Source: Hyphomicrobiales bacterium
GTDB taxonomy: Bacteria; Pseudomonadota; Alphaproteobacteria; Rhizobiales; JAJFHB01
Length of the DNA stretch: 32,707 bases
Direction: 5' to 3'
NCBI GenBank assembly: GCA_021775615.1
Contig: JAJFHL010000203.1
Span: 1-32,707, forward strand
Each line of letters opens with the position of its first letter. Position 1 is the first letter of the stretch. This document shows positions 11,947 to 31,345 of this stretch, piece by piece. A program made the position numbers and the translations under genes. The notes below the pieces were generated by a model, which did not search any database, was not told where the DNA came from, and saw nothing but the letters and a program-made list of their open reading frames with translations.

Positions 11947-11947
11947 G

Positions 11948-13745: not shown

Positions 13746-13765
13746 GATGAGGACCGGCCCTGTCT

Positions 13766-14689: not shown

Positions 14690-14818
14690 CCCCACCCGGA
14701 CCCTATATGCCCCACCGTTTTGTATTGTTTTGCGGCGGGCTTAGCACATCTCGAAGAGGCTGAGAACCGCACGAGCGCAGAAAGGGTAGCCCTTCCCGAA
14801 ACCAGCAAAAAATCTCCA

Positions 14819-15517: not shown

Positions 15518-15542
15518 AAATCACCCCTTGTGCGTTGTAAGG

Positions 15543-16610
15543 TCAGTGCCGCGCTTCGCGCCACAGATTGAGTTTTTCCTGAACCGCCTTGTCGGAGAAG
15601 CTGAAGAGCACGAGCTCGTCAGACGCCTCGAAACGGCATGTTGCCCAGGCCGGCACGACGAATATGTCGTCTTCCGCCAGGGCGAATTCCTGATCATCGA
15701 TCCAGGCCGTGCCGGCACCCTCGCAGACCACATAGATTGCGCCGTCGGTGGACTGGACCCGTTTTGTCGTCATGCCTTGAGGCACGAGTTGCGCGAAAGC
15801 GGAAATGGTCGCCATGACGGAACCGGCCGTGGCCGGATTGATGAATTCCATACGGACGCCGAAATGCGGGTCCGGCTCGCTTGCGGCCGCGGTGGCTGCC
15901 AGGCTCGCACGCCACTCGCTGAAGGGGTAGTGGAACAGCGGCTGCGGCCCTTCGGTGACCGCGGCGGTGGTGTCCGCCACCGGCCGCAGGTTGCGGCCGT
16001 AGCGCGCGATCGTGTCGCCGGCGGGCCTGATCTCGGCCTGTACGTTGGCGCCGTCGCCCGAGCCCATGCCTTCGGCGAAGCTGGCGTCCAGCGCCTGAAT
16101 GAGCGGAATATCGAGACCGTCGAGCCAAATCATCGGCTCGCCGGTCCGGTTGCCGTGGTCGTGCCAGTAAAGGCTGGGGGTGAGCACCAGGTCGAAACGC
16201 TGCATCACCGCCCTCTCGCCATTGACGGCGGTGAAGGCGCCCGAGCCCTGCATGACGAAGCGCAGAGCCGACTGGGTGTGGCGGTGCACCGGGGCGGCCT
16301 CACCGGGCAGGATCAGTTGCAGGCCGGCATAAAGGGTGCGGGTGATGCGCGACTGGCCCGGCATTGCCGGATTTTCGAGGATGAGCACCCGGCGTTCCGC
16401 CTCTTCCGCGGTGATCAGGTCCCCGGCCCGCAGGAGATAGTCCCTGGCCGGCCCGTAGGCCCACTTTGCCGGCACCGCCGGCGTGGTCGGCTCGGGCGTC
16501 ACCAGACCGTGCAGCACTTCCCACAGGGGCGCGAGATTATGGGGCTTGAGCTCTTCATAGAAACTCCGCCGCTGCGCCTCGATCTCATTGCTGAGGGTTT
16601 TCGCAGTCAT
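15543..16610 (-). CDS. Gentisate 1,2-dioxygenase (bicupin)
   Basis: The 355-residue bicupin matches gentisate 1,2-dioxygenases in length and motifs. The iron-binding first cupin carries PVHRHTQSALRFVMQG and a later YWHDHGN; the second cupin spans roughly residues 230-350. The enzyme opens gentisate with O2 to maleylpyruvate in the cytoplasm. The ATG at 16610 was chosen over an in-frame TTG five codons upstream because GGAGG lies eight bases ahead of it. It sits between a salicylyl-CoA-hydroxylase-like gene and an FAH hydrolase, an order that spells out ring hydroxylation, ring cleavage and hydrolysis. Related bicupins act on 1-hydroxy-2-naphthoate or salicylate, so the exact substrate rests partly on context. 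Confidence 0.85.
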   Translation of the reverse strand: MTAKTLSNEIEAQRRSFYEELKPHNLAPLWEVLHGLVTPEPTTPAVPAKWAYGPARDYLLRAGDLITAEEAERRVLILENPAMPGQSRITRTLYAGLQLILPGEAAPVHRHTQSALRFVMQGSGAFTAVNGERAVMQRFDLVLTPSLYWHDHGNRTGEPMIWLDGLDIPLIQALDASFAEGMGSGDGANVQAEIRPAGDTIARYGRNLRPVADTTAAVTEGPQPLFHYPFSEWRASLAATAAASEPDPHFGVRMEFINPATAGSVMATISAFAQLVPQGMTTKRVQSTDGAIYVVCEGAGTAWIDDQEFALAEDDIFVVPAWATCRFEASDELVLFSFSDKAVQEKLNLWREARH

Positions 16611-16697
16611 CCTCTCATCCTCCAACCAGTGGTGGCCATGGACGCACGATCAGCGAGGTACACCGCGCTTTTCGTACACCCCATTGAGTTCGCGTCT

Positions 16698-17834
16698 TCA
16701 TCGGCCTGCCACTTGTCTTGCCTGATAGCCGGCCATGAATTTTGGTGCAAGCCGCGCCAGCCGGTCATCACTCAGGCGGCCGCTGCGCCGGGCATAGCTG
16801 ATGGCGAACTCCCATGGCTCAAGCGCCATATGCTCGGCGAACCGTTCATACCACGACGCGCTTTCGTTTGCCGCCGCGACGAGCTTTTCGACAACCGGGC
16901 GGCGGCGCGCCTCGTAGACCTCAAGGGCGGCCGAAACGTCATCGGTACAATCGACCAGCGCGGCGGCAAGTGCGATGGCATCCTCCATGGCAAGCCGGGT
17001 GCCGGATCCGATCGAGAAATGAGCAGTGCGCAGGGCATCTCCCAAAAGCACCTGGTTGCCGACCCACCAGCGCCGGTTCCAGATCTTCGGGAAATTGCGC
17101 CAGGCCGATTTGTTGGAAATCAGCGGGTGCCCATCAAGCTCATGGGCAAAGACCCGGGCGCAGTAGGCCATCGTCTCGGCCTCATTCATGCCGGCCATCC
17201 CGGCACGCTGCCAGGTCTCGTTGTCGGTTTCGACAATGAAGGTGCTGCGGCCGGGCGCATAGCGGTAGTGGTGGGCGTTGAAACTGCCGTGATCGTTCCG
17301 GCGAAAAGCGTGGCTCAGGGTGTCAAAACGCCTGGTCGTGCCGTACCAGATGAACTTGTTGGTGAGCGTCGAAACCGTCGTTCCGAATTCGGCTTCGTGC
17401 CCGGCCCGCACGATCGAGTTCACTCCGTCGGCGCCAACGATCAGATCGGCCTGCCCGAGGTCATCGACCGAAGCGACAACGGTTTCAAACTCCGCCGCAA
17501 GACCAACCGAAAGCAGACGTTCCTGCAGCAGCTTGAGCAACTCCAGGCGGCCGATGGCGGCAAAGCCGATACCGTCCAGCGAGATGCGCTCGCCGCCGTG
17601 GTCCAGGGTCAGGTCGTCCCAGATCTCCATATGCGGCGTGATGTGATCGAAGGTTTCGGGATCGTCCTCGCGCAAAAACTCAAGCGCGCGGTCGGAGAAC
17701 ACAACCCCGAATCCGAAGGTGGCGTCCGCGCTGTTCTGCTCGACAATGCGTATCTCCGCATCGGGGCGCGCGCGTTTCAGCAGATAGGCAAAATAAAGAC
17801 CCGCAGGCCCTGCTCCAACCACCACGCAGCGCAT
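16698..17834 (-). CDS. Stand-alone FAD monooxygenase of the salicylyl-CoA 5-hydroxylase / 2-aminobenzoyl-CoA monooxygenase type
   Basis: This 378-residue flavoprotein has the FAD-binding GAGPAGLYF at the N-terminus, ADLIVGADGVNSIVR in the middle and [18 protein letters not shown] near residue 270. It is clearly homologous to residues 1-380 of the fused hydroxylase/reductase at 23863-26154 (shared segments include FGFGVVFSD, NKFIW and STFIVET.NETW) but has no OYE domain. Known relatives hydroxylate salicylyl-CoA at C5 to gentisyl-CoA. Adjacent gentisate dioxygenase and a divergent thioesterase make that the best assignment. AGAGGG lies seven bases before the ATG at 17834; a TTG one codon earlier is the alternative. 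It probably begins the minus-strand unit that runs through the Liv transporter genes. Confidence 0.8.
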   Translation of the reverse strand: MRCVVVGAGPAGLYFAYLLKRARPDAEIRIVEQNSADATFGFGVVFSDRALEFLREDDPETFDHITPHMEIWDDLTLDHGGERISLDGIGFAAIGRLELLKLLQERLLSVGLAAEFETVVASVDDLGQADLIVGADGVNSIVRAGHEAEFGTTVSTLTNKFIWYGTTRRFDTLSHAFRRNDHGSFNAHHYRYAPGRSTFIVETDNETWQRAGMAGMNEAETMAYCARVFAHELDGHPLISNKSAWRNFPKIWNRRWWVGNQVLLGDALRTAHFSIGSGTRLAMEDAIALAAALVDCTDDVSAALEVYEARRRPVVEKLVAAANESASWYERFAEHMALEPWEFAISYARRSGRLSDDRLARLAPKFMAGYQARQVAGR

Positions 17835-18023
17835 CAACCGGCCCTCTTCATCATGGCGCTCAGGTCAAGCAGGCCTGTCTTAAACAGTGCAGCTTCGCCC
17901 GGCACACGGCCCTCAAATCGCCTCCCGGGCACACCCGGTACACGCTCTTTCCGCAGATCAGGTTGCGAAGCGCCCGAGTTGGCCGCATAAGACCGGGCAA
18001 TCAATATCGAAGAGCACTGCACC
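17835..18023. promoter_or_regulatory. Divergent promoter region between hydroxylase and thioesterase
   Basis: These 189 bases separate the divergent FAD hydroxylase (minus) and thioesterase (plus) genes and must hold both promoters. A short inverted repeat CCGGG-CACA-CCCGG (around 17926-17939) is visible. I could not assign confident -35/-10 boxes or a regulator site, and no regulator gene lies next to this region. Confidence 0.35.
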
Positions 18024-18473
18024 ATGAAGTCAAGCTCCCCCGAACAGGGAAACAGCACGGTCATTGCGAACCGTGCCTTTACCGTCGAATGGGGCGAGTG
18101 CGATCCCCTGGGCATCATCTTCTACCCGACGTACTTTCGCTGGATCGATGCGTCCTCCCATGTGCTGTTCGGCCTCGTCGGACATGATATGCGCTCGCTG
18201 AGGGCCACCTTCGGGCTCGAGGGGCCGGTCATCGTCGATGCCGGCGCCAGGTTCATGCGGCCTGTCTCCTACGGCGACGAGATCGAAGCATCCGCATGGG
18301 TCGGCGTGTGGAACGAGAAGACGTTTCGGGTCGAACACCGGTTCGCCTGCGGCGGCGAACCGGTCTGTTCGGGCCATGAACTGCGCGCCTGGGCAATGCC
18401 CGACGAGGCCAGCCCAACCGGCATAAAGGCGGCGGCGATTCCCGATGCGTTCAAGAGCCTGTTCCAAAACTAG
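18024..18473 (+). CDS. Hot-dog acyl-CoA thioesterase (4-hydroxybenzoyl-CoA thioesterase type)
   Basis: The 149-residue hot-dog protein carries the 4-HBT active-site block VEWGECDPLGIIFYPTYF, with D27 in the position of the catalytic aspartate, then ARFMRPVSYGDEIEASAWV and EHRFACGGE. The family hydrolyses aromatic or fatty acyl-CoA thioesters. It is divergent from the salicylyl-CoA-hydroxylase-like gene and next to gentisate genes, so I infer gentisyl-CoA hydrolysis to gentisate. It could also serve as a general release valve for aryl-CoA from the neighbouring operon. Its stop overlaps the convergent stop of the Rid-family gene by a few bases. GAAGAG before the ATG is a weak ribosome-binding site. 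Confidence 0.83.
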   Translation: MKSSSPEQGNSTVIANRAFTVEWGECDPLGIIFYPTYFRWIDASSHVLFGLVGHDMRSLRATFGLEGPVIVDAGARFMRPVSYGDEIEASAWVGVWNEKTFRVEHRFACGGEPVCSGHELRAWAMPDEASPTGIKAAAIPDAFKSLFQN

Positions 18474-18877
18474 AACACCGCCGTCGATTCAATCTCGACC
18501 TTGGCCCTGTCCTCCACCAGCGCAGAGACCTCGACAACCGCCATGGCCGGGAAATTGGTGCCCAGAATGTCCTTGTAGGTCTGGCCGACCCCCTGCAGAT
18601 TGGCGAGATACTCCTTCTTGTCGGTGACGTACCAGGTCATGCGCACGAGATGTTCGGGACCGGCTCCCGCTTCCTCGAGCAGCGCACGCGTATTGCGCAG
18701 CGTCTGGGCGAACTGATCGACGAAGTCGTCGCTAACGAAACGGCCTTCCGGATCCATCCCCACCTGGCCGGCGACGAACACCATCCGGCCCTCGGCCGCC
18801 ATGGCATGAGAATACCCCTTCGGCCGCGGCCAGCCTTCGGGAAGAACCGGGCTGGGAAGTGTCTCTCTATCAGTCAT
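18470..18877 (-). CDS. RidA/YjgF-family protein lacking the catalytic arginine
   Basis: This 135-residue protein has the Rid fold signatures (VFVAGQVGMDPEG, VRMTWYVTD and FPAMAVVEVSALVEDRAKVEIE). In enamine/imine deaminases of the RidA group the last block reads FPARS, with the arginine binding the substrate carboxylate. Here that residue is M112. It therefore resembles Rid subfamilies without proven imine-deaminase activity. It is the last gene of the anthranilate/salicylyl-CoA-type operon, where an aminocyclohexene-carboxyl-CoA intermediate would have its carboxylate masked by CoA. I infer a role in handling a nitrogen-bearing or enol intermediate. AGAGAGAGGC precedes the ATG. Confidence 0.8.
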   Translation of the reverse strand: MTDRETLPSPVLPEGWPRPKGYSHAMAAEGRMVFVAGQVGMDPEGRFVSDDFVDQFAQTLRNTRALLEEAGAGPEHLVRMTWYVTDKKEYLANLQGVGQTYKDILGTNFPAMAVVEVSALVEDRAKVEIESTAVF

Positions 18878-18917
18878 AAAGCCTCTCTCTTGATGAATTT
18901 GCCGATGCGCAACTCGT

Positions 18918-20528
18918 TCAATCGATATCGCGCAGCTTGAAACGCTGCAGTTTGCCGGTCTGGGTACGCGGCAGCTTTTCCAGGAAAGTGATTTCGCGCG
19001 GATATTTATAGGGTGCGACCGTCCGCTTCACATGGTCCTGCAGGACCTGCGCCATTTCCGCCGTGTCGTCGGGCACGTCGTTCAGAACCACATAGGCTTT
19101 GACGATGTGGCCTCGGTCCGGATCCGGCTTGCCGATGACGCCGCATTCGGAAACCGCATCGTGGGTGAGCAGGGCGTTTTCGACCTCGGGGCCGGAAATG
19201 TTGTAGCCCGACGATATGATCATGTCGTCGGAGCGCGCCTGGTACCAGAAGTAGCCGTCCTCATCCTGGATCATGGTGTCGCCGGTGAGGTTCCAGCCGT
19301 TGCAGACATACTCGCGCTGCCGGTCGTCGGCCAGATAACGGCATCCGGTCGGCCCTTTCACTGCCAGTCTGCCGGGTGTGCCGCGCGGCGCTTCCACACC
19401 CCCCTCATCGAGGATGCAGGCGCTGTAGCCCGGCACCGGCAGCCCGGTGGCGCCGACCCGGATCTGATCGCCGGCGGACGTGATGAAGACATGCAGCAGT
19501 TCGGTCGCGCCCAGCCCGTCTATGAGGCTCAGCCCCAACTGATCGCGCACAGCTTCGAATGTCGCCTTGGGCAAATGCTCGCCGGCGGACACACCTTTCT
19601 TCAGCGACGTCAGATCGAACTGATCCGCCTTCGCCAGCATGGCGCGGTAGGCGGTCGGCGCGGTGAAACAGATTGTGGCGCGGTGCGTCTCGATGGCCGC
19701 CAGCAGCGCCTCCGGCGGCGCGGCCTCAAGAAGCAGTGTCGCGGCGCCTGCATGCATCGGGAACAGCGCCAGACCGCCCAGCCCGAAGGTGAAGGCCAGT
19801 GGCGGGCTGCCGCAGAAGACGTCGTCCGGTTCGGGTTGCAGCACCTGGGCCGAGAACCCATCGCAGATCGCAAGCATGTCGCGGTGGAAATGCATGGTGC
19901 CTTTCGGAGTGCCGGTTGTTCCCGATGTGAAGGCGATCAGGCAGAGGTCATCGGCGGCGCTGTCGAATGGCTCGAAGGATGCCGGTTTGTCCGCCATCAG
20001 CGCTTCCAGTGATCCTTCACCGCTGGAATTGAACCAGCCGACCTGTTTCAGCACCGCAGTGCTCTCCAGTGTGCGGGCCATCTCTTCGCTGAGGCGCTCA
20101 TCGCACAGCGCCAGTGCGATCTGCGCTTTCTCGGCAATGATGGAAAGTTCCTTGGCGCGCAGGAGCGGCATGGTGCCGACGGCAATGCCGCCGGCCTTGA
20201 TCACCGCCATATAGGCAATGACCATCATCGGATTGTTGGCGGAACGCAGCAGCACACGGTTTCCCGGGATAACGCCGAAATCATCGACCAGCACATGGGC
20301 CAGCCGGTTCACCTGTTCGGCCACCTGGGCATAGGTCAATGTCGTTTCGGGCGTCATCAGGGCAACGCGATCACCCTTCCCTTCCTCCACCCAGCGATCG
20401 ACGAAGCGGGTGACGCAGTTGAGCCGGTCGGGATAGTGATAGGCGGCATGCGACAGGTCGATCTCGGGCCACTGCTCGCGCGGCGGCAGGTTGTCTTTGG
20501 CAAATGTATCGTTCAGCGGCTTCGACAT
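18918..20528 (-). CDS. Aryl-CoA ligase of the benzoate/2-aminobenzoate-CoA ligase type
   Basis: This 536-residue AMP-forming ligase has the P-loop-like AFTSGTTGTPKGTMHFHRD (about 199-217), the hinge and CoA-side block SSGYNISGPEVENALL, and the C-terminal catalytic lysine in PRTQTGKLQRFKLRD (K526). Sequence style and length match benzoate-CoA and 2-aminobenzoate-CoA ligases. It would activate anthranilate or a related ortho-substituted benzoate with ATP and CoA in the cytoplasm, supplying both the fused hydroxylase of its own operon and, possibly, the stand-alone hydroxylase next door. It starts 7 bases after the stop of the acyl-CoA dehydrogenase and is followed after 40 bases by the Rid protein. 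Confidence 0.85.
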   Translation of the reverse strand: MSKPLNDTFAKDNLPPREQWPEIDLSHAAYHYPDRLNCVTRFVDRWVEEGKGDRVALMTPETTLTYAQVAEQVNRLAHVLVDDFGVIPGNRVLLRSANNPMMVIAYMAVIKAGGIAVGTMPLLRAKELSIIAEKAQIALALCDERLSEEMARTLESTAVLKQVGWFNSSGEGSLEALMADKPASFEPFDSAADDLCLIAFTSGTTGTPKGTMHFHRDMLAICDGFSAQVLQPEPDDVFCGSPPLAFTFGLGGLALFPMHAGAATLLLEAAPPEALLAAIETHRATICFTAPTAYRAMLAKADQFDLTSLKKGVSAGEHLPKATFEAVRDQLGLSLIDGLGATELLHVFITSAGDQIRVGATGLPVPGYSACILDEGGVEAPRGTPGRLAVKGPTGCRYLADDRQREYVCNGWNLTGDTMIQDEDGYFWYQARSDDMIISSGYNISGPEVENALLTHDAVSECGVIGKPDPDRGHIVKAYVVLNDVPDDTAEMAQVLQDHVKRTVAPYKYPREITFLEKLPRTQTGKLQRFKLRDID

Positions 20529-20535
20529 GTCGCCC

Positions 20536-21714
20536 TCACCCGATTTCGCCCAAGCGGTTGTCGAGGGTCTGGCGCGCGATGATCAGCTGTTGCACCTCAC
20601 TTGCGCCCTCGTAAATGCGCAGCGCCCGGATGTCGCGGTAGAGCTCTTCGACCTTGACCCCCTTCTTGACGCCAAGCCCGCCATGCAACTGGACCGCCTC
20701 GTCGATCACCTTCTGGGCGGTTTCGGTGGCGAAGAGCTTGGCCATCGAGGCTTCGCGGGTGACGCGCTCGGCGCCCTGGTCCTTGGCCCAGGCGGCGCGG
20801 TAGATCAGCAACGCCGCCGCATCGATGCCCAGCGCCATATCGGCGATCTTGGCCTGGGGAATCTGCAGGTCGGCAAGCGCGGCATTGCCGATCATGCGCG
20901 AGCGCGCGTGATCGACGGCTTCGTCGAGGGCGCGCCGGGCAAAGCCGAGCGCGGCGGCGCCGACAGTGGAGCGGAACACATCAAGGGTCGCCATGGCGAT
21001 CTTGAAGCCCTGGCCCTCCTCGCCGAGAAGATTGTCCAGCGGCACCCGGCAGTCTTCGAAAGCGAGCCGAGCCAACGGATGCGGGGCAATGACGTCAAGC
21101 CGTTCAGCGACGGCCAGGCCCGGGGTGTCGGCCGGCACGACGATGGCCGACAGGCCGCGCGTCCCGGGCGCATCGCTGGTGCGGGCGAAGACAACATAGC
21201 GGTCGGCGATGCCGCCGTTCGATATCCAGGTCTTCTCGCCGTTGAGAACGAATTCACCGCCCTCCTCGCGGGCTGTGAGTTCGATTGCCGCGGCATCGGA
21301 CCCGGCTTTCGGCTCAGTCAGGGCAAAGGCGGCCAACGCCTCACCCTTGGCAACCGGCGGCAGCAGAGCGGACATCTGCTCCTTCGAGCCGAACAGGCAT
21401 ATGGGGCCTGATCCGAGCCCCTGCATGGCGAAGGCGAAATCGGCAAGGGCATGATGCCGCGCGAGGGTTTCGCGTATGATGCACAATGACCGGACATCAA
21501 GCTGGTTGCGGGCGCCGCCATAGGGCGCGATCACCGAATGGCGCAGAAAGCCGGCAGCACCCAGCTCGCGGACCAGGGCACGGCACGCATCGTCTTCGCT
21601 GCCGGAGTGGGCGAGATCGTCCACATGGGCCGACGCCCAGGCATCGATGGCCGAGGCCAGCTCACGGTGACGGGGTTCGAAGAACGGCCAGTCGAGGAAG
21701 CTGCGGTCCGGCAT
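20536..21714 (-). CDS. Acyl-CoA dehydrogenase
   Basis: The 392-residue protein is a standard acyl-CoA dehydrogenase: [34 protein letters not shown], and the catalytic glutamate E369 in [41 protein letters not shown] is the FAD-contact region. In this operon it would oxidise a saturated cyclic or open-chain CoA thioester formed after ring reduction, or serve the first step of beta-oxidation of the product. Its ATG abuts the stop of the crotonase gene with no intervening base, and its stop is 7 bases from the ligase start. Its acyl-chain preference cannot be read. Confidence 0.87.
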
Positions 21715-22527
21715 CTAGTTGCCCTCGAACTCTGGTTCGCGTTTCTCCGCGAAAGCCTCGAAGGCACGGGTGAAGTCCCCGGTGGCCATGCAGACCGCCT
21801 GGGCACGGGCTTCCGCCTCTATCGCCTCGTCGATGCTCATGTCCCATTCTTCATGCAGCATGCGCTTGGTGATGCCGTGCGCGAACGAGGGGCCCGTCGC
21901 CAGGATTTCTGCCATGGCACGGGCTTCGCCCAAAACATCTTCGGAAGAGCACAGGCGGTTGTAAAAACCCCAGCGTTCCGCCTCCTCGCCTTTCATTACG
22001 CGTCCGGAATAAAGCAGTTCGGCAGCGCGGCCGTGGCCGATAATGCGCGGCAGCATCGCGCAGGCGCCCATATCGCATCCGGCCAGGCCAACCCGCACGA
22101 ACAGGAACGCCACCTTGGAGTTCGCGGTGCCATATCTGAGGTCTGACCCCATGGCGAGGCAGGCGCCGGCGCCGACACAGATGCCGTCGATGGCAGCGAC
22201 AATCGGCTGCGGGCAGGCCCGCATGGCCTTGACCACCGCCCCGGTCATGCGGGTGAATTTCAGAAGATCCGGCATCGCCATTTTTGTCAGCGGCTCGATG
22301 ATCTCGAACACGTCTCCGCCGGCGCAGAAGTTGCCGTCCGCTCCGGTGAGTACGATGGACTTGATATCGGGGTCGTGGCGCAAGGCCTCGAAGGTGTCGC
22401 GCAGTTCGGCGTAGGACTCGAATGTCAGCGGATTCTTCTTCTCCGGCCGGTCGATGGTGATCTGCGCCACGGCGCCGTCCACCTGCCAGCGAAAGTGCTC
22501 CGCCTTGTAATCCGTCATTCTTGTCAT
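21715..22527 (-). CDS. Enoyl-CoA hydratase/crotonase-family protein lacking both hydratase glutamates
   Basis: The 270-residue crotonase has the oxyanion-hole segments [10 protein letters not shown] and [16 protein letters not shown]. The two glutamates of true enoyl-CoA hydratases (E144 and E164 of rat crotonase) are replaced here by C123 (GAGAC) and R145 (FLFVRVGL). An aspartate, D152 in [12 protein letters not shown], sits at or next to the place where MenB/BadI-type and 4-chlorobenzoyl-CoA-dehalogenase-type crotonases carry a functional aspartate. It is therefore probably not a simple hydratase; ring opening of a beta-keto cyclic CoA is a fitting alternative. I chose the ATG at 22527, with AAGGGG eight bases upstream; a GTG at 22530 and an ATG at 22518 are other options. 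Confidence 0.82.
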
Positions 22528-22565
22528 CACTGCATCCCCTTAATGCGTGTCCCTACGGCGTGCCC

Positions 22566-23081
22566 CTACTGTGCACTCTTGGCGGCGCCGGGCATCTTCA
22601 AGACCGTGTCCTTCAGGGCGCCCAGCTGGCCCGTCAATTGTTCCTGTTCGTGCTCATCGAGCCCCGACATGAGCTCGCGGATCCATTCTTCATGGACTTC
22701 CGCCATGGTCTCGAATGCGGCACGGCCCTTCTCGCTGAGCCCGATGACCCGGGAACGGCGGTCGCTTGGATGCGCAATGCGCTCTACCAGGCCTTCGCGC
22801 GCCAGACGGTCGGTGAGACCGGTGATGTTGCCGCCGGTCACCATCAGGTTCTTGCCGAGCTGGCTCATGGTCATGGCGCGCTCGGGACTGCGATAGAGTT
22901 GCGCCATGAAGTCAAACTTGGCGAGCGACATGTCGAAACGGGCGCGCAGCCGGCGGCCGATTTCCGCTTCAATCAGAGTCACACAGGAGAACAACCTCAA
23001 CCAAAGTCTCACACTGGCCTTGGCGCCGGATCCGGCATCCTCGTAGTCGTGGATCGCAGCCGAAGTATCTGGGTTTTGCAT
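22566..23081 (-). CDS. MarR-family transcriptional regulator
   Basis: The 171-residue protein has a MarR winged helix-turn-helix: MTMSQLGKNLMVTGGNITGL as recognition region and the wing AHPSDRRSRVIGLSEKG, between N- and C-terminal dimerisation helices. The ATG at 23081 shares its A with the stop of the SDR gene (TGATG), so the two are translationally coupled; a longer in-frame start upstream is rejected. MarR proteins in aromatic operons usually repress and are released by an aryl-CoA or free acid. The likely target is the divergent region 26155-26320, where an inverted repeat overlaps a predicted promoter. Lying inside the operon it would regulate itself. Confidence 0.87.
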   Translation of the reverse strand: MQNPDTSAAIHDYEDAGSGAKASVRLWLRLFSCVTLIEAEIGRRLRARFDMSLAKFDFMAQLYRSPERAMTMSQLGKNLMVTGGNITGLTDRLAREGLVERIAHPSDRRSRVIGLSEKGRAAFETMAEVHEEWIRELMSGLDEHEQEQLTGQLGALKDTVLKMPGAAKSAQ

Positions 23082-23863
23082 CACATCACCTCGCCACCGG
23101 AAACGGAAATAGCCTGGCCGGTCACGCTGCGCGCGGCCTCGCTGCACAGCCAGACCGCGGTCTGCGCCACATCATTTGGTTCGATCAATCGTCCCTGCGG
23201 ATTCACTGCGGCAAGCTGCGCACGGGCCTCGTCTTCGCTCAAGCCCGTGGCCCGGGTGATCTTTTCCACCGAGGCCGCCAGCAGGTCGGTTTCGGTGAAG
23301 CCGGGACAGATGGCATTGACGGTTGCGCCCGAGCCGGCAAGCTCCAGGGCCAGCGCCCGGGTCAGGCCCAGGACGCCATGCTTGGCGGCGCAGTAGGCGG
23401 AAACATAGGCATAGCCTTTCAACGAGGCGGTACTGGCAATATTGACGATGCGGCCGGATCTGGCGGCCGTGATGTCGCCGAGCACGGCCTGGATCATGTT
23501 GTAGGTCCCGGTCAGGTTGACCGCGAGCATGTGGTCCCAGAGGTCGCTGCCGGTTGCCTTGAACGGCGCGCTCTCGGCGGCGCCCGCATTGTTCACGAGC
23601 ACCTCGATGGCGCCATGCTCGGACCTCAGGGCTTCAACCGCGTCATTGATCGTTACGGGGTCGGTCACATCGGCAACGAACAGGCCTCCTGCAAGCCCCA
23701 GCCGATTATGGGTCTCTTCAAGGGTCGCCCGGGTACGGCCAATCACCGAGACCCGCATCCCCTGATCGCTCAGGGCGGCGGCCACGGCGGCTCCAATGCC
23801 GCGCGCGCCTCCGGTGACCAGGGCGTGGCGGCGATCGAGGACCGTGACATTCGAGGCCGCCAT
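23081..23863 (-). CDS. Short-chain dehydrogenase/reductase
   Basis: This 260-residue SDR has the Rossmann motif TGGARGIGA (17-25), NNAG (91-94), S144 and the catalytic Y157-x-x-x-K161 (SAYCAAKHG). It should oxidise or reduce a hydroxyl or keto group with NAD(P). In the operon it would act on a hydroxy- or oxo-cyclohexene-carboxyl-CoA or on the open-chain 3-hydroxyacyl-CoA. The ATG at 23863 shares one base with the stop of the fused hydroxylase gene (TGATG), and its own stop shares one base with the MarR start. This tight overlap marks a single translationally coupled block. Confidence 0.87.
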   Translation of the reverse strand: MAASNVTVLDRRHALVTGGARGIGAAVAAALSDQGMRVSVIGRTRATLEETHNRLGLAGGLFVADVTDPVTINDAVEALRSEHGAIEVLVNNAGAAESAPFKATGSDLWDHMLAVNLTGTYNMIQAVLGDITAARSGRIVNIASTASLKGYAYVSAYCAAKHGVLGLTRALALELAGSGATVNAICPGFTETDLLAASVEKITRATGLSEDEARAQLAAVNPQGRLIEPNDVAQTAVWLCSEAARSVTGQAISVSGGEVM

Positions 23864-26154
23864 CACGCTTTCACCGCCATGTCTTCGGACCGCTCAAGAT
23901 TGCGGCGATACTGATCGCGCCCAGGCCAGTATTGTTTGGGCCAGGACACGTCGGCATAGCCAAGCCGTGCGGCGGCGTGCTGGGTCCAGCGCGGATTCGC
24001 AAGATGCGGCCTTGCAAGCGCAACGAGATCGGCGCGGCCGGCGGCGAGGATCGAATTGACATGGTCGGGCTCAAAGATGTTGCCGACCGCCATGGTCGCA
24101 ATTCCGGCCTCGTTTCGGATCCGGTCCGACATCGGCGTCTGGAACATGCGGCCATAGACCGGATTGGCGTCCGGCGTGGTCTGGCCGGCGGAAACATCCA
24201 TCAGATCGATGCCGCGTTCCTTGAGGCGCCCGGCGATCTCGATCGCCTCTTCCGGCGGCAAACCGTCCGGATGCCAGTCGGTCGAGGAGATGCGCACCGA
24301 CATCGGCGCGTTGTCGGGCCAGGCGGCGCGCATGGCATCGGCCACTTCGAGCGGGAACCGCAGGCGGTTTTCCAGTTCTCCGCCATACTCGTCGTTGCGC
24401 CTGTTGGTGAGCGGCGAAATGAAGGATGAGAGAAGATAGCCATGGGCGGCGTGCAGTTCGACCATATCGAAACCGCACCCGGCGGCGCGGGCCGTGGCGG
24501 CGGCGAAATCGGCCACCACCTTGTCCATGTCTTCGCGGGACGCCTGGTGCGGCACCTGATTGTGGGCGCGCCAGGGAATTGCGGACGGAGCCAGAACCTC
24601 CCAGTTGCCCTGCTCGAGCGGCTCATCCATGCCTTCCCAGCCGACGCGGGTCGACCCTTTGCGGCCGGAATGGCCGAGCTGCAGGCAGATCTTGGCGTTC
24701 GAGCCGGAATGGACGAAGTCGACAATGCGGCGCCATCGCTCGGTATGCTCGTCGTTCCACAGGCCGGTGCAGCCCGGCGTGATCCGGCCTTCCGGTGAAA
24801 CGCAGGTCATTTCGGTGAAAATCAGGCCGGCGCCGCCGAGCGCGAAGCCGCCGAGATGCACCATATGGAAGTCCGCCGGAGTGCCGTCCTGCGCCGAGTA
24901 GGTGGCCATGGGCGAGACCACGACGCGGTTTTCAAGCTCCATACCGCGCAGGCGGAACGGCGCGAACATCGGCGGAACGGGATCATTGCGTTCGCCGCCG
25001 TTGGCGCTCGCGCAAAACCAGCTTTCCACGGAACCGAGATAGTCGGGATCACGCAGGCGCAGGTTCTCATGGCTGACCCTCTGGCTGCGGGTCAGCAGGG
25101 AATAGGCAAACTGTTCCGGTTCGAAGCCGGCATAGCGCTGGACGTTTTCGAACCACTCGGTCGAGTTGCGCGCCGCCGACTGCAGCCGCAACACTTCGAT
25201 CTGGCGCTCCGCCTGGTAGGCCTCGAGCACCTCAGCAATCGGCTGTGACGTGCCCTTGAAGAGGCGCGACAGGGAAATCGCGTCTTCCAGCGCAAGCTTG
25301 GTGCCCGAGCCGATGGAGAAATGCGCCGAGTGGGCGGCGTCGCCCATCAGCACGATGTTGTCCTTGATCCAGGTCTCGTTGAGGACGCGGGGGAAGTTGA
25401 TCCAGACGTTCGAGCCGCGCAGGTGACGGGCATTGGACATCAGAGCGTGGCCGCCAAGGTGGTCGGCGAAAAGCTCCTCGCAGAAGGCGATGCCGTCGTC
25501 CGCCGACATGTCGCCGAGGCCAGCCGCTTCCCAGGTCTCGTTGGTGGTCTCGACAATGAAGGTCGAAGTATCAGCGTTGAATTTATAGGCGTGAACCTGA
25601 AACCAGCCCCACTCGGTCTCCTTGAAGACGAAGGTGAAGGCATCGAACAGCTGATGCGTGCCGAGCCAGATGAACTTGTTCGAGCGCATCTCGATGTCGG
25701 GCTTGAAGTGATCGGCAAAGCGGGTCCGGATCTGGGAGTTGAGGCCGTCGGCGGCGATCACCAGATCGGCGTCGCACAGCGCGTCGATGTCCTCGATGTT
25801 GGTCTCGTAGTGGAGATCGACGCCAAGCTTTGCGGCGCGGCGCTGCAGGATGTTGAGGAGGTGCTTGCGCTCGATGCCGGAAAACCCATGACCGCCGGAG
25901 CGGATCGTCTCGCCCTTGAAGTGAACGTCTATATCGTCCCAGTGGGCGAAGGACCGGTGGATCTCTTCCGCCGTCAGACGGTCCGCTTGAGCCAGATTCT
26001 CCAGGGTCTCATCGGAAAACACCACGCCCCAGCCGAACGTGTCGTCGGGCCCGTTGCGTTCATAGACTGTGATGTCGTGCGACCGGTCCTGCAACTTCAT
26101 GAGGACCGAGAAATACAGACCGGCGGGACCACCTCCGATGCAATTGATCTTCAT
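23863..26154 (-). CDS. Fused FAD monooxygenase / OYE-type reductase (2-aminobenzoyl-CoA monooxygenase/reductase or salicylyl-CoA 5-hydroxylase type)
   Basis: The 763-residue bifunctional flavoprotein has an FAD monooxygenase half (residues 1-380: [10 protein letters not shown] at 6-15, [33 protein letters not shown] near 268-285). The second half is Old-Yellow-Enzyme-like (about 395-763: [61 protein letters not shown]). This architecture is known from 2-aminobenzoyl-CoA monooxygenase/reductase, which hydroxylates and then reduces the ring of anthraniloyl-CoA, and database names also use salicylyl-CoA 5-hydroxylase/oxidoreductase. It is the first gene of its operon, followed by SDR, MarR, crotonase, acyl-CoA dehydrogenase, ligase and Rid. 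The ribosome-binding site is weak (TTGGA close to the ATG). Confidence 0.9.
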
Positions 26155-26210
26155 TCCAATGGGCCACCGTGGTTCGGGACTGCGGGGATGTACGCCGGAC
26201 TTGATGCAAC

Positions 26211-26240
26211 TAGTTTAGTTCTCAATAGTTTACTTGTAAA
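26211..26240 (-). promoter_or_regulatory. Predicted sigma70 promoter and candidate MarR operator upstream of the anthranilate/salicylyl-CoA-type operon
   Basis: On the minus strand TTTACA (26240-26235) and TAAACT (26217-26212) are separated by 17 bases, a fair -35/-10 pair about 50 bases before the ATG at 26154. The inverted repeat TTTAC-TT-GTAAA (26229-26240) covers the -35 box. TAGTTTA is repeated directly at 26211-26217 (over the -10 box) and 26226-26232, and AACTAGTT (26208-26215) is a perfect 8-base palindrome. This island is AT-rich in a GC-rich region. Such an arrangement fits repression by the MarR protein of the operon. The divergent plus-strand operon starts 80 bases away and may share the control. 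Confidence 0.5.
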
Positions 26241-26320
26241 TCAGTATCGCCATGCGGTAACCTCGTTGCCAAAGCACAAGCGTGATGGCACGCTAAAAAT
26301 GGGGCAATGAGGAGGTGGTT

Positions 26321-27352
26321 GTGGATGCTGAAGCTGTAAAGCAGCTGGCGCGTGATCTCGGCGCAGACCTCGTCGGCATCGCCAGCGCCAAGACCCTCAA
26401 CGCCTTCCCGCCGGACCCGCTGTGGCCGCAAACGCCCGACCGAATTTCCGAAAGCTGCAAAAGCGTCATTGTCATCGTGAGCCGGATACCGGTCGCCGCC
26501 TTCCGCGCCAAGTCGGGCGTCGCGGTCCAGTACATGGACATGATGGTGCTTCGGCGCATGGACAAGATCGCCTACCGCCTCGCCCAGGCGCTTGAGCGCG
26601 AAGGCCATCCAGCCTTCGTGACCGCCGCCCAGGAAACCGACTGGGACTTTAAACGCGCAAGCTATGGACGCCTCTCGACCCGACATCTGGGGATCGAGGC
26701 GGGGCTCGGCACCTTCGGGCTGGAAGTCAATATCCTGACACCGGAATTCGGCCCCAGGATCTATCTCACCGGTGTCCTCACCGATCTTGAGCTCGAGCCG
26801 GATCAAATCATGACCGAGCAGGTCTGTATCGGGGAATCGTGTTCGCGCTGCCTTTATTCCTGCCCGACCGATGCGGTGAGGCATTTCGGCATCGACAAGC
26901 GCAATTGCGCCAAGGAGGCCCAGGAATTCGGCTTCATGACGTCTCTGCCCGTCTGGGACAGGTTCATCGACGGTGATGCGGAAACCCGCAAGGACCTCAT
27001 CAGGTCGCGCGACATCTACGGCTTCTGGCAGGGCCTGCTGCGGGTTGTCGGCTCCTTCGGCGACTGCCCGCGCTGCCTCGCGGTGTGCCCGGTGGGGAAC
27101 GACTACCACGCCTATCTCGCCGACCACCAAAAAGTCATTCCAGAAAAGACCGACGAAAAAGTCGCCAAGGCCAAGGGCTTCAAGCAGGCCCGAAAAGAGG
27201 GCGACGACGTTTCCGGGCTGAACGACTGGAACATGCGATGGGTCGGGCCCGAAGGCTACAAGGGCATCGTCGCGCGCCAGTTGCAGGAATTCAAGGCGAA
27301 GCAGCGCCAGCGTGAGGAACGCCGAACGCCGACATCGGAGAACGCGGAGTAA
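26321..27352 (+). CDS. Two-cluster 4Fe-4S protein related to QueG/reductive dehalogenases (copy 1)
   Basis: The 343-residue protein has an N-terminal domain with the block IEAGLGTFGLEVNILTPEFG and VLTDLELEPD, which is shared by epoxyqueuosine reductase (QueG) and reductive-dehalogenase relatives. Two cysteine motifs follow: C169-x4-C-x2-C-x3-CP and C249-x2-C-x3-CP, enough for two 4Fe-4S clusters. Founding families are cobalamin enzymes, but no cobalamin ligand can be assigned by eye. The GTG at 26321 was chosen because GAGGAGG ends five bases upstream; a GTG at 26315 overlaps that site. No twin-arginine signal is present, so it is cytoplasmic, unlike respiratory dehalogenases. It overlaps the next, paralogous gene by one base (TAATG). 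Confidence 0.75.
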   Translation: MDAEAVKQLARDLGADLVGIASAKTLNAFPPDPLWPQTPDRISESCKSVIVIVSRIPVAAFRAKSGVAVQYMDMMVLRRMDKIAYRLAQALEREGHPAFVTAAQETDWDFKRASYGRLSTRHLGIEAGLGTFGLEVNILTPEFGPRIYLTGVLTDLELEPDQIMTEQVCIGESCSRCLYSCPTDAVRHFGIDKRNCAKEAQEFGFMTSLPVWDRFIDGDAETRKDLIRSRDIYGFWQGLLRVVGSFGDCPRCLAVCPVGNDYHAYLADHQKVIPEKTDEKVAKAKGFKQARKEGDDVSGLNDWNMRWVGPEGYKGIVARQLQEFKAKQRQREERRTPTSENAE

Positions 27353-28353
27353 TGGTTCAGGTTTTTCAGGCGCCGGTGAGCGCCGACGACGTCAAGGCGA
27401 AAGCGGCCTCGCTCGGTATCGACCTCGTCGGTATTGCCGACGGCAAGGTGATGGATGCGCATCCACCGGACCCGGCCAATCCGCTGCGCCCGTGCGACAT
27501 TTCAGATTATGACGCGGATCGGGTCATCGTTCTGGGAAAGCGCCACAATATCGGTTCGACGCGTCTCACCCGGTGGGACGAGCGCCACAAATACTACAAT
27601 GACGAACTCAACATCACGATGCTCGAGGAAGCCTCGCTCGAGCTGGTGCTGTGGCTCGAGGACCGCGGCTATCCGGGGCTCATAATTCCTCCGACCCATG
27701 TCGACCCATGGACCTATCAGGGCGAGCCCGACGCGCCGCTCGGAACCATCCTCTCCCTCACCCATGCCGCCGTCGAAGCCGGCCTCGGCACGCTCGGCCT
27801 CAACCAACAGCTGCTGACGCCTGAGTTCGGACCGCGGGTTGTGCTCTCGGCGGTGCTGTCCTCGGTGCCGGTCGAACCGGACACAAAGCGCGACGAGACA
27901 CTCTGCCTTGGCCCCGCCTGCGGGCGCTGCCTGCTGGCCTGCCCCGGCGACGTCATCGGTCATTGGGACCGCGATTGGCAGGCCTGCAACCGCCACCGCT
28001 CGCCGCACGGCTTCCAGGCTCTGACCGAACATGTCGAACGGATGATCGACGAGCCGGACAACGAAAAGAAGAAAGAGATGCTGCGCTCGCCCGAGCAGTT
28101 CTCTCTGTGGCAGAGCATCCTGCGCGGCGCCGGCGTGGTGACCGGCTGCAGGCGATGCCAGGATGTCTGCCCGATCGGCGAGGACTACGCGCGGCTGGCC
28201 GACGCGGTCGACGACATCGCCGAGGCGAACGACGAAAAGCGCTCCCGGCTCGCGGCCATGATCGAGGCGGAAGGTGCGGGCGCGCTTCCGGCAAGCTATG
28301 ATGCCGCCGGCCGCTGGATCGGCGCCCTGCAAGTGCAACCAAACGAGGACTGA
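27352..28353 (+). CDS. Two-cluster 4Fe-4S protein related to QueG/reductive dehalogenases (copy 2)
   Basis: The 333-residue protein is a diverged paralogue of the gene before it. Its start shares one base with the previous stop (TAATG), so equal synthesis and a two-subunit enzyme are plausible. It keeps VEAGLGTLGLNQQLLTPEFG and the Cys motifs C185-x4-C-x2-C-x3-CP and C266-x2-C-x3-CP, and the W-Q-x2-L/I-L-R segment before the second cluster. It differs in the N-terminal half, with a His/Asp-rich segment (KRHNIGSTRLTRWDERHKYY and PPTHVDPWTYQGEPD) absent from copy 1. This may mark the substrate or cofactor side. No signal peptide is seen. It is followed after 2 bases by a CoA-ligase gene. Confidence 0.75.
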   Translation: MVQVFQAPVSADDVKAKAASLGIDLVGIADGKVMDAHPPDPANPLRPCDISDYDADRVIVLGKRHNIGSTRLTRWDERHKYYNDELNITMLEEASLELVLWLEDRGYPGLIIPPTHVDPWTYQGEPDAPLGTILSLTHAAVEAGLGTLGLNQQLLTPEFGPRVVLSAVLSSVPVEPDTKRDETLCLGPACGRCLLACPGDVIGHWDRDWQACNRHRSPHGFQALTEHVERMIDEPDNEKKKEMLRSPEQFSLWQSILRGAGVVTGCRRCQDVCPIGEDYARLADAVDDIAEANDEKRSRLAAMIEAEGAGALPASYDAAGRWIGALQVQPNED

Positions 28354-28355
28354 CC

Positions 28356-29648
28356 ATGGTGCTGCCCCTGCCCAAGTCGCGCGAGGCGCTGGCCGAGCTG
28401 CAAAGCGAGCGCAAGCGGCGCGCGGTCGAGCATGCAAGGCGGGCGCCGTTCTTCAAGGGCAAGCTCGATCACATCAATCTCGACAGGCTCGACGACATGG
28501 ACGAGTGGCGCAAGATCCCGCTGCTCGAGAAGGATGCGCTCCGGGCGATACCGAATGACCGGTTTTTCGAGCAGTTCTGCATTGCGCCGCAATCGGAGAT
28601 CTCGGAATTCTGGCGCTCCGGCGGGTCGACCGGCAAGCCGCTGTTCTATCCGCGGACTTTTGAAGACATCGCCTATGCCACGGAGGCCTTCCGGCGCTCT
28701 TTCGAGATGGTCGGAGCCGGTGCCGACGACATTGCCCACAACTCGTTTCCGCTGGGTATTCACCCTGCCGGTCACATGTGGGCGCGCACCGCGGAGAAGA
28801 TGAAGATCGCCGTCAACTGGGCAGGGTCCGGCACCGGCACCCCATCTACGATCCAGTTGCAGCTCCTGGGACTGATGCGGCCGACCATCTGGATGGGCAT
28901 GCCGGGCTATGGCCTGCATCTCGCCAATCTGGCGGAGACGCAGGGGATCGACCTTGCGGGCTCAACCGTCGAGAAGATCATGACGTCGGCCGAACCGCTT
29001 TCAGCGGTCAAACGTGAGAAGCTGGAACGCACCTGGGGCGCCGAGGTGTTCGACAGTTTCGGCATGACCGAGTGTTCACTGATGGGCTGCGAGTCGACAG
29101 ACCACGAAGGCCAGGTGCTCTATACGGATTTCGCCTTCATCGAGGTGATCGATGAAGAGACCCACGAACCGCTCGGGCCCGACGAAGAGGGCCTGCTGGT
29201 GGTCACCACACTCTTCACCAACAACGCCACGCCGTTCCTGCGCTGGAGTTCGGGCGACATCGTCTCGTGGCGCTGGCCCGAACTGACCGACGATCCCTAT
29301 TCGGTGTTCCCCCTGGTCCGGCACGCTCACCGCACCGCCGGCTTCTTCAAGGTGCGCGGCGTCAACATCGCCCATGAGGAATTCGAGGACATGATGCTTG
29401 CGCGCGACGACGTCGCCGAGTTCAAATGCGAAGCTGTGAACGACGGCGGCGCCGACGCCCTGCGCCTGTCGGTCGAGTTCAAACAGGGCATCGAAGCGTC
29501 CGAGGCTTCGGCCGCCATAACCGAGCAGGTTAAATCGACCTTCGAGGTGACCCCTGACATCACCATGCCGGAGCGCGGCACTCTCGGCGCAGAATACGAG
29601 AAGATGATCAAGACCAACCGGTTCTACGACCGTCGGTCGGAAACATAG
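28356..29648 (+). CDS. PaaK-like adenylate-forming ligase (phenylacetate-CoA ligase family)
   Basis: The 430-residue protein fits the phenylacetate-CoA ligase (PaaK) branch in size. The phosphate-binding loop is SGGSTGKP (88-95), the adenine-side block is FDSFGMTECSLMG (near 229-241), and FLRWSSGDIVSW and VRGVNIAHEEFEDMML mark the hinge and C-terminal domain. It should activate an aryl or arylalkyl carboxylate as acyl-AMP and then as CoA thioester. The ATG is 2 bases after the stop of the second Fe-S protein, so its substrate is probably the substrate or product of those proteins. This is a different ligase family from the one at 18918-20528, which argues for a separate pathway. Confidence 0.8.
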   Translation: MVLPLPKSREALAELQSERKRRAVEHARRAPFFKGKLDHINLDRLDDMDEWRKIPLLEKDALRAIPNDRFFEQFCIAPQSEISEFWRSGGSTGKPLFYPRTFEDIAYATEAFRRSFEMVGAGADDIAHNSFPLGIHPAGHMWARTAEKMKIAVNWAGSGTGTPSTIQLQLLGLMRPTIWMGMPGYGLHLANLAETQGIDLAGSTVEKIMTSAEPLSAVKREKLERTWGAEVFDSFGMTECSLMGCESTDHEGQVLYTDFAFIEVIDEETHEPLGPDEEGLLVVTTLFTNNATPFLRWSSGDIVSWRWPELTDDPYSVFPLVRHAHRTAGFFKVRGVNIAHEEFEDMMLARDDVAEFKCEAVNDGGADALRLSVEFKQGIEASEASAAITEQVKSTFEVTPDITMPERGTLGAEYEKMIKTNRFYDRRSET

Positions 29649-29660
29649 GGAGGATATGCC

Positions 29661-30110
29661 ATGAGCGATATGACACTCGGCATCACACCCGCCGGAGCGG
29701 GCGAAGGCGGCGAGGTCTGGAACATCCTGGGTCAGACCTATTATCTCAAGTCGAACACGCCGAGCAGCTTCTCGTTCGAGACCTTCTTCCCGCCGGGCAC
29801 CTATGTGCCGCCGCACATTCATCCAAAGCAGGACGAGTTCATCTATGTGCTCGATGGAACCTTCGACCTGTTCCTCGATGGCGAAGACGGCAAGGCTTCG
29901 ACCGGCGATCTCGTTCGCATGCCGCGCGGCATCGCCCATGGCATCTTCAACAAATCGGATGATCCGGTGAAGGCCCTGTTCTGGGTCTCGCCGGCAGGCT
30001 CCCTGCTCGATCTGTTCCGGGCGATCCATGATCTGACCGATCCGCAGGAGGTGGTGCGCCTTTCCGCCCTGCACGACGTTGACTTTCTGCCGCCTCCGCC
30101 CGACGCCTGA
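29661..30110 (+). CDS. Single-domain cupin protein
   Basis: This 149-residue cupin has both motifs complete: PPHIHPKQDEFIYVLDG (H-x-H, E and G of motif 1) and GDLVRMPRGIAHGIFN (P-x-G, H and N of motif 2), so a metal site of three His and one Glu is likely. Single cupins of this length include dioxygenases, isomerases and binding proteins; the function here is unknown. GGGAGGATATGCC before the ATG gives a good ribosome-binding site, and it is 12 bases from the ligase stop. The operon context suggests a ring-modifying or isomerising step on the ligase's product or substrate. Confidence 0.78.
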   Translation: MSDMTLGITPAGAGEGGEVWNILGQTYYLKSNTPSSFSFETFFPPGTYVPPHIHPKQDEFIYVLDGTFDLFLDGEDGKASTGDLVRMPRGIAHGIFNKSDDPVKALFWVSPAGSLLDLFRAIHDLTDPQEVVRLSALHDVDFLPPPPDA

Positions 30111-30137
30111 GCGGCCCGCCACAAGCAAGGACATCCA

Positions 30138-31250
30138 ATGGCAACCAACGGCAAACCGCCTTTCCGGGCCGATCATGTGGGTTCTCTGCTGCGTCCGCAG
30201 TCGGTGCTCGATGCACGGGCGCAGCGTAAACGCGGCGAGATCAGCGCCGAAGATCTGCGTGAGGTCGAGGACGCGGCCATCGCCGACATTATCGCGAAGC
30301 AGGAAGAGACCGGTCTCGAAGCCATCACCGACGGCGAGTTCCGCCGCGAAATGTTCCATGTGGATTTCCTGCAGAACCTGAACGGCGTTGCCGTCACCGG
30401 CGGGCTGGCGGTGAAATTCCGCAGCAATGAAGGCGAACGCGAGTTCGCACCGCCGAAACTGGAAGTGGTCGGGCGGATCGAGCGGACCCGGGAAATCGCC
30501 GTATCAGATTTCGCGTTTCTGAAGGGCAAGGTCGGCAAGACGCCGAAACTCTGCATCCCCTCGCCCACCATGCTGCACTTCCGCACCGGGCGCAAAGGCA
30601 TCTCCAAGGACGTTTACCCGGATATCGAGGACTTCTTCTCCGATCTCGCCCGGGCCTACCGCGAAGAGATCGCCGCACTCGGCAAGGCGGGCTGCACCTA
30701 CCTGCAGCTCGACGACACCAACCTCGCCTATCTCTGCGATCCGGCGATGCGCGAACGCACCAGGGCCATGGGCGAGGATCCCGACAAACTGCCGAAGCTC
30801 TACGCCCGCATCATCAACGACGCCATCGCTTCGAGGCCGGATACGATGACCGTGTGCATTCATCTGTGCCGCGGCAACTTCCGCAGTTCGTGGGTCGCAG
30901 AGGGCGGCTATGAGCCGGTGGCGGAGGTGCTGCTCAACGAGCTCGATATAGACGGTTATTTCCTTGAGTATGACGACGAGCGTTCCGGCGACTTCGCACC
31001 TCTGCGCTTTACGCCTAAGGGCAAGATGGTGGTGCTTGGGCTGGTGACGTCTAAGCTGCCGGAGCTTGAAGCCAAGGACGATCTCAAGCAGCGCATCGAG
31101 GAGGCCGCGCAATATGTCGACGGCGACCAGTTGGCGCTGAGCCCGCAATGCGGCTTTTCAAGCACGGTGCACGGCAACGAACTGACCGAGGCGGACGAGA
31201 TGGCCAAGCTGCGACTGGTGGTCGAGACGGCCAGGGAGGTCTGGGGATAG
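30138..31250 (+). CDS. Short MetE-like zinc enzyme (cobalamin-independent methionine synthase C-terminal family)
   Basis: The 370-residue protein matches only the catalytic barrel of MetE and lacks its N-terminal half. All zinc ligands are conserved: H242 and C244 (CIHLCRGN), E277 (YFLEYDDERSGDF) and C338 (ALSPQCGFSST). The front strand DHVGSLLRP and YLQLDDTNLAYLCD are family hallmarks. Relatives of this size include archaeal-type methionine synthases that take methyl from a corrinoid and epoxyalkane:coenzyme M transferases, so the general reaction is alkyl transfer to a zinc-activated thiol. Being last in an operon of Fe-S proteins, ligase and cupin suggests a catabolic demethylation or thiol-transfer step and not housekeeping methionine synthesis. 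It is followed by palindromic repeats. Confidence 0.82.
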   Translation: MATNGKPPFRADHVGSLLRPQSVLDARAQRKRGEISAEDLREVEDAAIADIIAKQEETGLEAITDGEFRREMFHVDFLQNLNGVAVTGGLAVKFRSNEGEREFAPPKLEVVGRIERTREIAVSDFAFLKGKVGKTPKLCIPSPTMLHFRTGRKGISKDVYPDIEDFFSDLARAYREEIAALGKAGCTYLQLDDTNLAYLCDPAMRERTRAMGEDPDKLPKLYARIINDAIASRPDTMTVCIHLCRGNFRSSWVAEGGYEPVAEVLLNELDIDGYFLEYDDERSGDFAPLRFTPKGKMVVLGLVTSKLPELEAKDDLKQRIEEAAQYVDGDQLALSPQCGFSSTVHGNELTEADEMAKLRLVVETAREVWG

Positions 31251-31259
31251 GTTACACCT

Positions 31260-31345
31260 CGTCATTCCCGCGAAGGCGGGAATTCGTTGCGTTTCACGCC
31301 GCCATGCCAATCGCCTCCTGGATTCCCGCTTTCGCGGGAATGACG
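31260..31345. repeat. Paired intergenic palindromic repeats (GTCATTCCCGC type)
   Basis: Two copies in inverted orientation. CGTCATTCCCGC begins the left copy at 31260, and GCGGGAATGACG ends the right copy at 31345. Each copy is itself a hairpin with 7-bp arms TTCCCGC/GCGGGAA (31265-31282, loop GAAG; 31323-31340, loop TTTC). Together they can form a larger stem. Such elements are common between genes in proteobacteria. There is no T-tract, but the hairpins could stabilise or end the upstream transcript. Confidence 0.85.

Follow-up and report, generated by a model that had tools for sequence, protein, structure and literature searches.

Two paired Fe-S proteins and a PaaK-like CoA ligase form a conserved gene module next to a predicted 2-aminobenzoyl-CoA operon in a Hyphomicrobiales bacterium

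What reaction might be encoded where two adjacent iron-sulfur (Fe-S) proteins that resemble cobalamin-dependent reductases are followed by a CoA ligase? The question is raised by a 32,707-nt stretch of DNA from a Hyphomicrobiales bacterium (contig JAJFHL010000203.1 of assembly GCA_021775615.1; hereafter the window), in which five co-directional open reading frames (ORFs) occupy positions 26321–31250 of the forward strand. The first three encode FeS1 (26321..27352, +, 343 aa), its partner FeS2 (27352..28353, +, 333 aa, 38% identical to FeS1), both of the reductive dehalogenase (RDase)/QueG type with two predicted [4Fe-4S] clusters, and a PaaK-like AMP-forming aryl-CoA ligase recognized by family scan (28356..29648, +). 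In the current work, we describe the conservation of this gene set and propose, with moderate confidence, that FeS1-FeS2-PaaK is a catabolic module that removes a substituent from an aryl-CoA ahead of 2-aminobenzoyl-CoA (abm) or benzoyl-CoA catabolism.

The five ORFs are separated by -1, 2, 12, and 27 bases, with a TAATG overlap at the FeS1/FeS2 junction, and the GTG start of FeS1 at 26321 has AGGAGG ahead of it and coincides with the residue at which FeS1 homologues begin. The first-pass annotation had described these genes as a single operon, and its ORFs, coordinates, strand, spacing, and family names were all confirmed, with the assignments of the Fe-S pair being distant only. The five genes thus hold together locally; as a functional unit they do not, since beyond close relatives only FeS1-FeS2-ligase is co-conserved.

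This three-gene unit emerged from a comparison of approximately 30 loci, with homologues from Hyphomicrobiales, Rhodospirillales, and Betaproteobacteria (loci and genomes are given below by their L and G numbers). All 31 loci that hold both FeS1 and FeS2 have them side by side, mostly overlapping or fewer than 25 bases apart; the exception is L052, where the listed end of FeS2 leaves a gap of 479 bases. Within the main subfamily (FeS1 67–88% identical), PaaK follows FeS2 in nearly all loci, the exceptions being two that end at contig ends (L033 and L040) and one with no recovered PaaK match (L058). The pairs of paralogous subfamilies (FeS1 53–66%) sit with other CoA ligases, either of the benzoate-CoA-ligase type (L053 and L055) or of the FadD type, there accompanied by an acyl-CoA dehydrogenase (L063, L064, and L066), and at least three ligase types (PaaK, benzoate-CoA-ligase-like, and FadD-like) are therefore linked to the pair. 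A very distant Fe-S pair (approximately 25% identity) is encoded divergently to an AMP ligase in a further genome (G003:C28, L120:2076-3886, +), which makes the ligase-linked Fe-S pair a broader family. No FeS1 match was obtained in a plasmid collection at 1e-20, an even draw of genomes across the phylum yielded no additional module-bearing genomes, and no description of an FeS1-FeS2-PaaK module was found in open-access papers. The module represents a novel branch of an established superfamily, and its setting is likewise new. Some loci also carry a further gene directly before FeS1: a transglutaminase-like gene in five (L052, L054, L057, L058, and L059) and a DsbA-like gene in four from Rhodospirillales (L038, at 9488-9997, L036, L037, and L039).

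Both Fe-S proteins score far below the family cut-offs. Against the QueG profile (TIGR00276, cut-off 200 bits), FeS1 reaches 56.7 and FeS2 45.0 bits, and against the reductive dehalogenase profile (TIGR02486, cut-off 160 bits) they reach 40.6 and 31.4 bits, respectively. The idea that the two are ordinary epoxyqueuosine reductases, raised as a possible refutation in the first-pass annotation, was rejected on the basis of these low scores and of a true QueG (442.7 bits) encoded elsewhere in the same genome. That genome also encodes a second RDase-like Fe-S protein away from the locus (G000:C182, L118:806-1789, +; 119 bits, cut-off 160).

Deeper comparisons nevertheless place the pair in one superfamily. 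The FeS1 and FeS2 profiles align end to end, and searches with them among solved structures matched only QueG and reductive dehalogenases (for FeS1, QueG at 9e-13 and RDases at 3e-11 to 7e-9). Eight cysteines are invariant in 29 of 29 FeS1 homologues (C169, C174, C177, C181, C196, C249, C252, and C256) and likewise in 28 of 28 FeS2 sequences, with the pattern CX4CX2CX3C ... C ... CX2CX3C in both, which is the number that the class-III superfamily uses to bind two [4Fe-4S] clusters; each protein is accordingly predicted from its sequence to carry two. The AlphaFold model of FeS2 (predicted local distance difference test, pLDDT, 84.9) superimposes on NpRdhA, PceA, and QueG with Z scores of 17–18 over 204–231 residues, followed by MMACHC at 9.7, and Foldseek matches of the FeS1 model are RDases and QueG too, although weaker. 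Thus, the class-III cobalamin fold (PMC7585037), comprising a nitroreductase-like cobalamin-binding domain and a ferredoxin-type domain, is predicted for FeS2 from its model and for FeS1 from profile and Foldseek matches, with cobalamin binding being putative. The earlier description of these proteins as paired and cytoplasmic, with features of cobalamin-dependent reductases, is supported.

The residues associated with known class-III chemistry are a different matter. The column of NpRdhA K488 and PceA R305 holds Tyr or Asn in FeS1 and Ile, Met, Val, or Leu in FeS2. Neither protein has Tyr in the column of NpRdhA Y426, which was positioned from spacing, with less certainty than that of the Lys. 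The QueG Asp134 column (presumed B. subtilis numbering, based on alignment) holds Ser or Thr in FeS1 and is variable, mostly Pro or Thr, in FeS2. The residues of known chemistry are absent, and each subunit instead has invariant polar residues of its own (K111, Y115, and H122 in FeS1; H79, K80, D84, E85, H116, D118, and H138 in FeS2). As judged from these alignments, FeS1 and FeS2 have thus diverged from each other, and both differ from standard RDases and QueG.

This pattern bears directly on the nature of the leaving group. Catabolic RDases dehalogenate free halophenols, and the pair might analogously dehalogenate a halo-anthraniloyl-CoA or halo-benzoyl-CoA. The RDase fold of FeS2 points in this direction, as do two loci: L064, whose operon (FeS1-FeS2-RDH-acyl-CoA dehydrogenase-ligase) includes a true reductive dehalogenase gene (RDH) between FeS2 and the acyl-CoA dehydrogenase (L064:6862-8130, -, G253:C92; 185 bits, cut-off 160), and L059, with a HAD-II haloacid-dehalogenase-like gene and a kynureninase. 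However, halogen genes occur in these two loci only, and neither subunit keeps the positions of the Tyr/Lys(Arg) dyad, which is required in NpRdhA (PMC7565698). We therefore consider dehalogenation doubtful; among the substituents suggested in the first-pass annotation, halide is weakened by the missing dyad, whereas removal of a group in general still fits.

The same missing residues could mean that the pair is non-catalytic and serves as an electron relay or cofactor-repair system for another enzyme (RDH where present, ACMR, introduced below, elsewhere), in the manner of MMACHC/MMADHC. Such a role agrees with the absence of the active-site residues of either known enzyme type, with the similarity of the fold to MMACHC and MMADHC, and with the position of RDH as the next gene in L064. 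We nonetheless judge it quite improbable: the roughly 30 loci share no client enzyme except the CoA ligase, and ACMR is a flavoprotein that occurs without the Fe-S pair in 58 genomes of the class.

Evidence on the substrate comes from the ligase and the neighboring genes. The window ligase scores 138 bits against the PaaK phenylacetate-CoA ligase profile (TIGR02155, cut-off 646), and its sequence suggests that it is PaaK-like with a likely substrate other than phenylacetate. Upstream of FeS1 and divergent from it lies the gene for a bifunctional enzyme of the 2-aminobenzoyl-CoA monooxygenase/reductase (ACMR) type (23863..26154, -; NF006101, 1305 bits, cut-off 1078). It heads an operon that continues with SDR, MarR, enoyl-CoA hydratase, acyl-CoA dehydrogenase, aryl-CoA ligase, and RidA genes (18470..23866, -) and then with genes for a flavin monooxygenase, gentisate 1,2-dioxygenase (492 bits, cut-off 442), an FAH-family hydrolase, and the LivHMGF transporter (11245..17837, -). 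With its linked aryl-CoA ligase and beta-oxidation genes, a set that is found in comparable form around ACMR in many genomes, this operon is, by gene content, the aerobic route for 2-aminobenzoyl-CoA that Azoarcus evansii is known to use (PMC4539516). Salicylate also remains a possible ACMR substrate, since the NCBI name of the family is salicylyl-CoA 5-hydroxylase/oxidoreductase. The RidA-family enamine/imine deaminase gene within the operon (18470-18877, -) would fit removal of the enamine nitrogen from the ACMR product. The 166-bp region between ACMR and FeS1 (26155..26320) is probably a shared control region of the abm operon and the module; a promoter and terminator scan gave matches not above chance, including the promoter-like matches in this region. 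Overall, the first-pass interpretation was partly supported, having overlooked the abm pathway encoded directly upstream as the partner of the module.

Connections between module and abm genes recur beyond the window. ACMR is divergent from the module in G001 as well, and FeS1-FeS2 adjoins ACMR in a sister species of the same genus (L033/L051), which carries PaaK, cupin, and MetE-like genes in the same order on another contig (L115; 78–87% identity). In L087 and L095, a PaaK homologue and ACMR are divergently encoded, in L095 with an intervening MarR gene. The module operon of L061 begins with RidA, and kynureninase, which yields anthranilate, is encoded after PaaK in L059 and within an abm operon in L093. 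Genes for the Liv transporter and its binding-protein (SBP) family neighbor the module in several genomes; in module-free genomes they neighbor abm.

Co-occurrence extends this association to whole genomes. All 18 module genomes contain ACMR, as do 10 of 11 others reached via loci (after removal of L034, which repeats G020), which gives 28 of 29 in total; the exception is a metagenome-assembled genome with partial matches only (G801). In the class sample, ACMR is present in 10/10 module genomes and 58/361 module-negative ones (Fisher p 2e-8, or approximately 1e-4 by family, the only count that takes phylogeny into account). The control enzyme PaaA (phenylacetyl-CoA epoxidase) is present in 0/10 module genomes and 47/372 overall, and a general "aromatic degrader" explanation was rejected on this control.

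BoxB is enriched as well (27/29 module genomes versus 63/330), and among ACMR-positive genomes it is present in 8/9 with the module and 23/49 without (p 0.02). These statistics are the support for a further reading, in which anthraniloyl-CoA or salicylyl-CoA would be reductively deaminated or dehydroxylated to benzoyl-CoA for the box pathway, as an aerobic counterpart of the 2-aminobenzoyl-CoA reductase (deaminating) reaction known under anoxic conditions in Azoarcus evansii (PMC4539516). ACMR and BoxB also correlate in genomes without the module (odds ratio 6.8), but the ACMR link is the tighter one: among BoxB-positive genomes, ACMR is present in 8/8 with the module and 23/54 without (p 0.002), and the conditional tests favor ACMR over BoxB as the partner of the module. 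Moreover, no box gene was present in any module locus examined, and the abm operons of most module genomes own a ligase, so that PaaK would be redundant. Deamination or dehydroxylation toward the box pathway is thus unlikely in our estimation, slightly more so than dehalogenation. Both are partly nested in the proposal of substituent removal, as candidate leaving groups, and our confidences in the individual readings overlap and do not sum to one.

Taken together, we propose that an aminobenzoate-type aromatic acid would be taken up, often via the linked Liv ABC transporter, and activated by PaaK to its CoA thioester. FeS1 and FeS2 would associate in the cytoplasm as a heteromer with the class-III cobalamin fold, in which low-potential electrons would pass via four [4Fe-4S] clusters to a putative cobalamin site where a halogen, hydroxyl, or amino substituent would be reductively removed; the product would then enter the ACMR/abm pathway next door or, less likely, benzoyl-CoA (box) catabolism. 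Reductive removal of a group from an aryl-CoA, as the first-pass annotation had suggested, fits an Fe-S pair with a B12-type fold beside a CoA ligase. Several observations weigh against this proposal. The RDase Tyr/Lys dyad and QueG Asp134 are absent from both subunits, so that precedent is no guide to the chemistry and the pair may no longer use cobalamin; the FeS1 model is weak (pLDDT 57.5), too low for pocket analysis; most module copies are not adjacent to ACMR; the BoxB enrichment implies that entry may occur at benzoyl-CoA instead of anthraniloyl-CoA; and a CoA-dependent aromatic lifestyle may be a partial confounder of the ACMR signal.

The last two genes of the window operon appear to be accessory. 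The mono-cupin (29661..30110, +), in which both metal-binding cupin motifs are kept, is found only in the closest relatives (L032/L046 and L115). The MetE-like zinc enzyme (30138..31250, +) is a member of PRK06520 (NF005085, 464 bits, cut-off 313) whose closest solved relative is 1ypx; its 370 aa comprise the catalytic domain only, with no N-terminal folate-binding domain, and retain the zinc-ligand positions (HxC 242-244, E 277, and C 338). It would be unneeded for methionine because MetH is present in the window's genome (G000) as well as in G020 and G023 (PMC7857596 describes the families of core methionine synthases). The first-pass annotation had given this enzyme the task of passing an alkyl group to a thiol, which in its full form amounts to demethoxylation or demethylation, the Fe-S pair freeing the alkyl group. 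The conserved zinc ligands are compatible with this, as is the recurrence of MetE near ACMR, a PaaK gene (PaaK'), or gentisate dioxygenase in G067, G023, and G001. Yet MetE and cupin are absent beside nearly all other module copies, MetE lies elsewhere in sister genomes, it associates with other genes but no Fe-S pair in G067 and G023, and the window operon has no visible separate corrinoid methyl-carrier protein. Alkyl transfer as part of the unit is consequently not upheld, and we regard the demethoxylation scheme as highly improbable; MetE probably belongs to the wider aromatic region. In G003, it lies beside a flavin monooxygenase, and in a separate locus (L117:7262-11883) a MetE-like gene is followed by gentisate 1,2-dioxygenase and FAH hydrolase genes, with kynureninase and Liv genes alongside. 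Between MetE and a convergent flavin monooxygenase in the window lies a 24-nt inverted repeat that is 96% complementary and REP-like (31260-31345).

Dehalogenation and epoxyqueuosine reduction are, to our knowledge, the only functions described so far for the class-III cobalamin fold. We tentatively suggest, as a possibility short of an even chance, that FeS1/FeS2 would be the first class-III cobalamin enzyme known to be heteromeric and also the first with CoA thioesters as substrates. In this view, the pair would be an aryl-CoA reductase that depends on B12, functions aerobically, and has a new active site, and it would belong to a wider ligase-linked family whose members serve different acids. 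If so, the fold would gain a third function from a paired, ligase-linked branch that is widespread among aerobic Alpha- and Betaproteobacteria, and the branch would show how such bacteria reduce activated aromatic acids ahead of oxygenation. The module may also supply a candidate for the genes behind reductive deamination or ortho-dehalogenation of aryl-CoAs; we know of no gene for the deaminating 2-aminobenzoyl-CoA reductase. Because the module is small, conserved, and carried by a cultured strain (Amorphus coralli DSM 19760), it is directly testable.

Compared to the catabolic NpRdhA and the respiratory PceA, the pair has in common the predicted nitroreductase-like cobalamin-binding fold and two [4Fe-4S] clusters, and it shares with catabolic RDases a cytoplasmic location and the GLGxxG...TPEFGPR motif. 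Unlike RDases, it consists of paired ORFs of 333–343 aa with no twin-arginine translocation (TAT) signal and no fused reductase, lacks the Tyr/Lys(Arg) dyad, and is linked to a CoA ligase. QueG likewise is soluble and has the class-III fold and eight cluster cysteines, whereas the pair reaches only 45–57 bits against its cut-off of 200, has Asp134 replaced, and stands in a catabolic context. The window MetE resembles the core-MetE family (MesA-D; PRK06520; 1ypx) as a lone MetE barrel with zinc ligands; in contrast to that family, it is accessory to a module in a genome with MetH. The anaerobic 2-aminobenzoyl-CoA reductase (deaminating) and the proposed pair would both remove a ring substituent reductively from an aminobenzoyl-CoA, although the window context is aerobic. 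Finally, the abm pathway of Azoarcus evansii and the divergent operon of the window share an ACMR-type enzyme, a ligase, and beta-oxidation genes, to which the Fe-S/PaaK module is an added unit, present in 10 of the 68 sampled ACMR-bearing genomes of the class.

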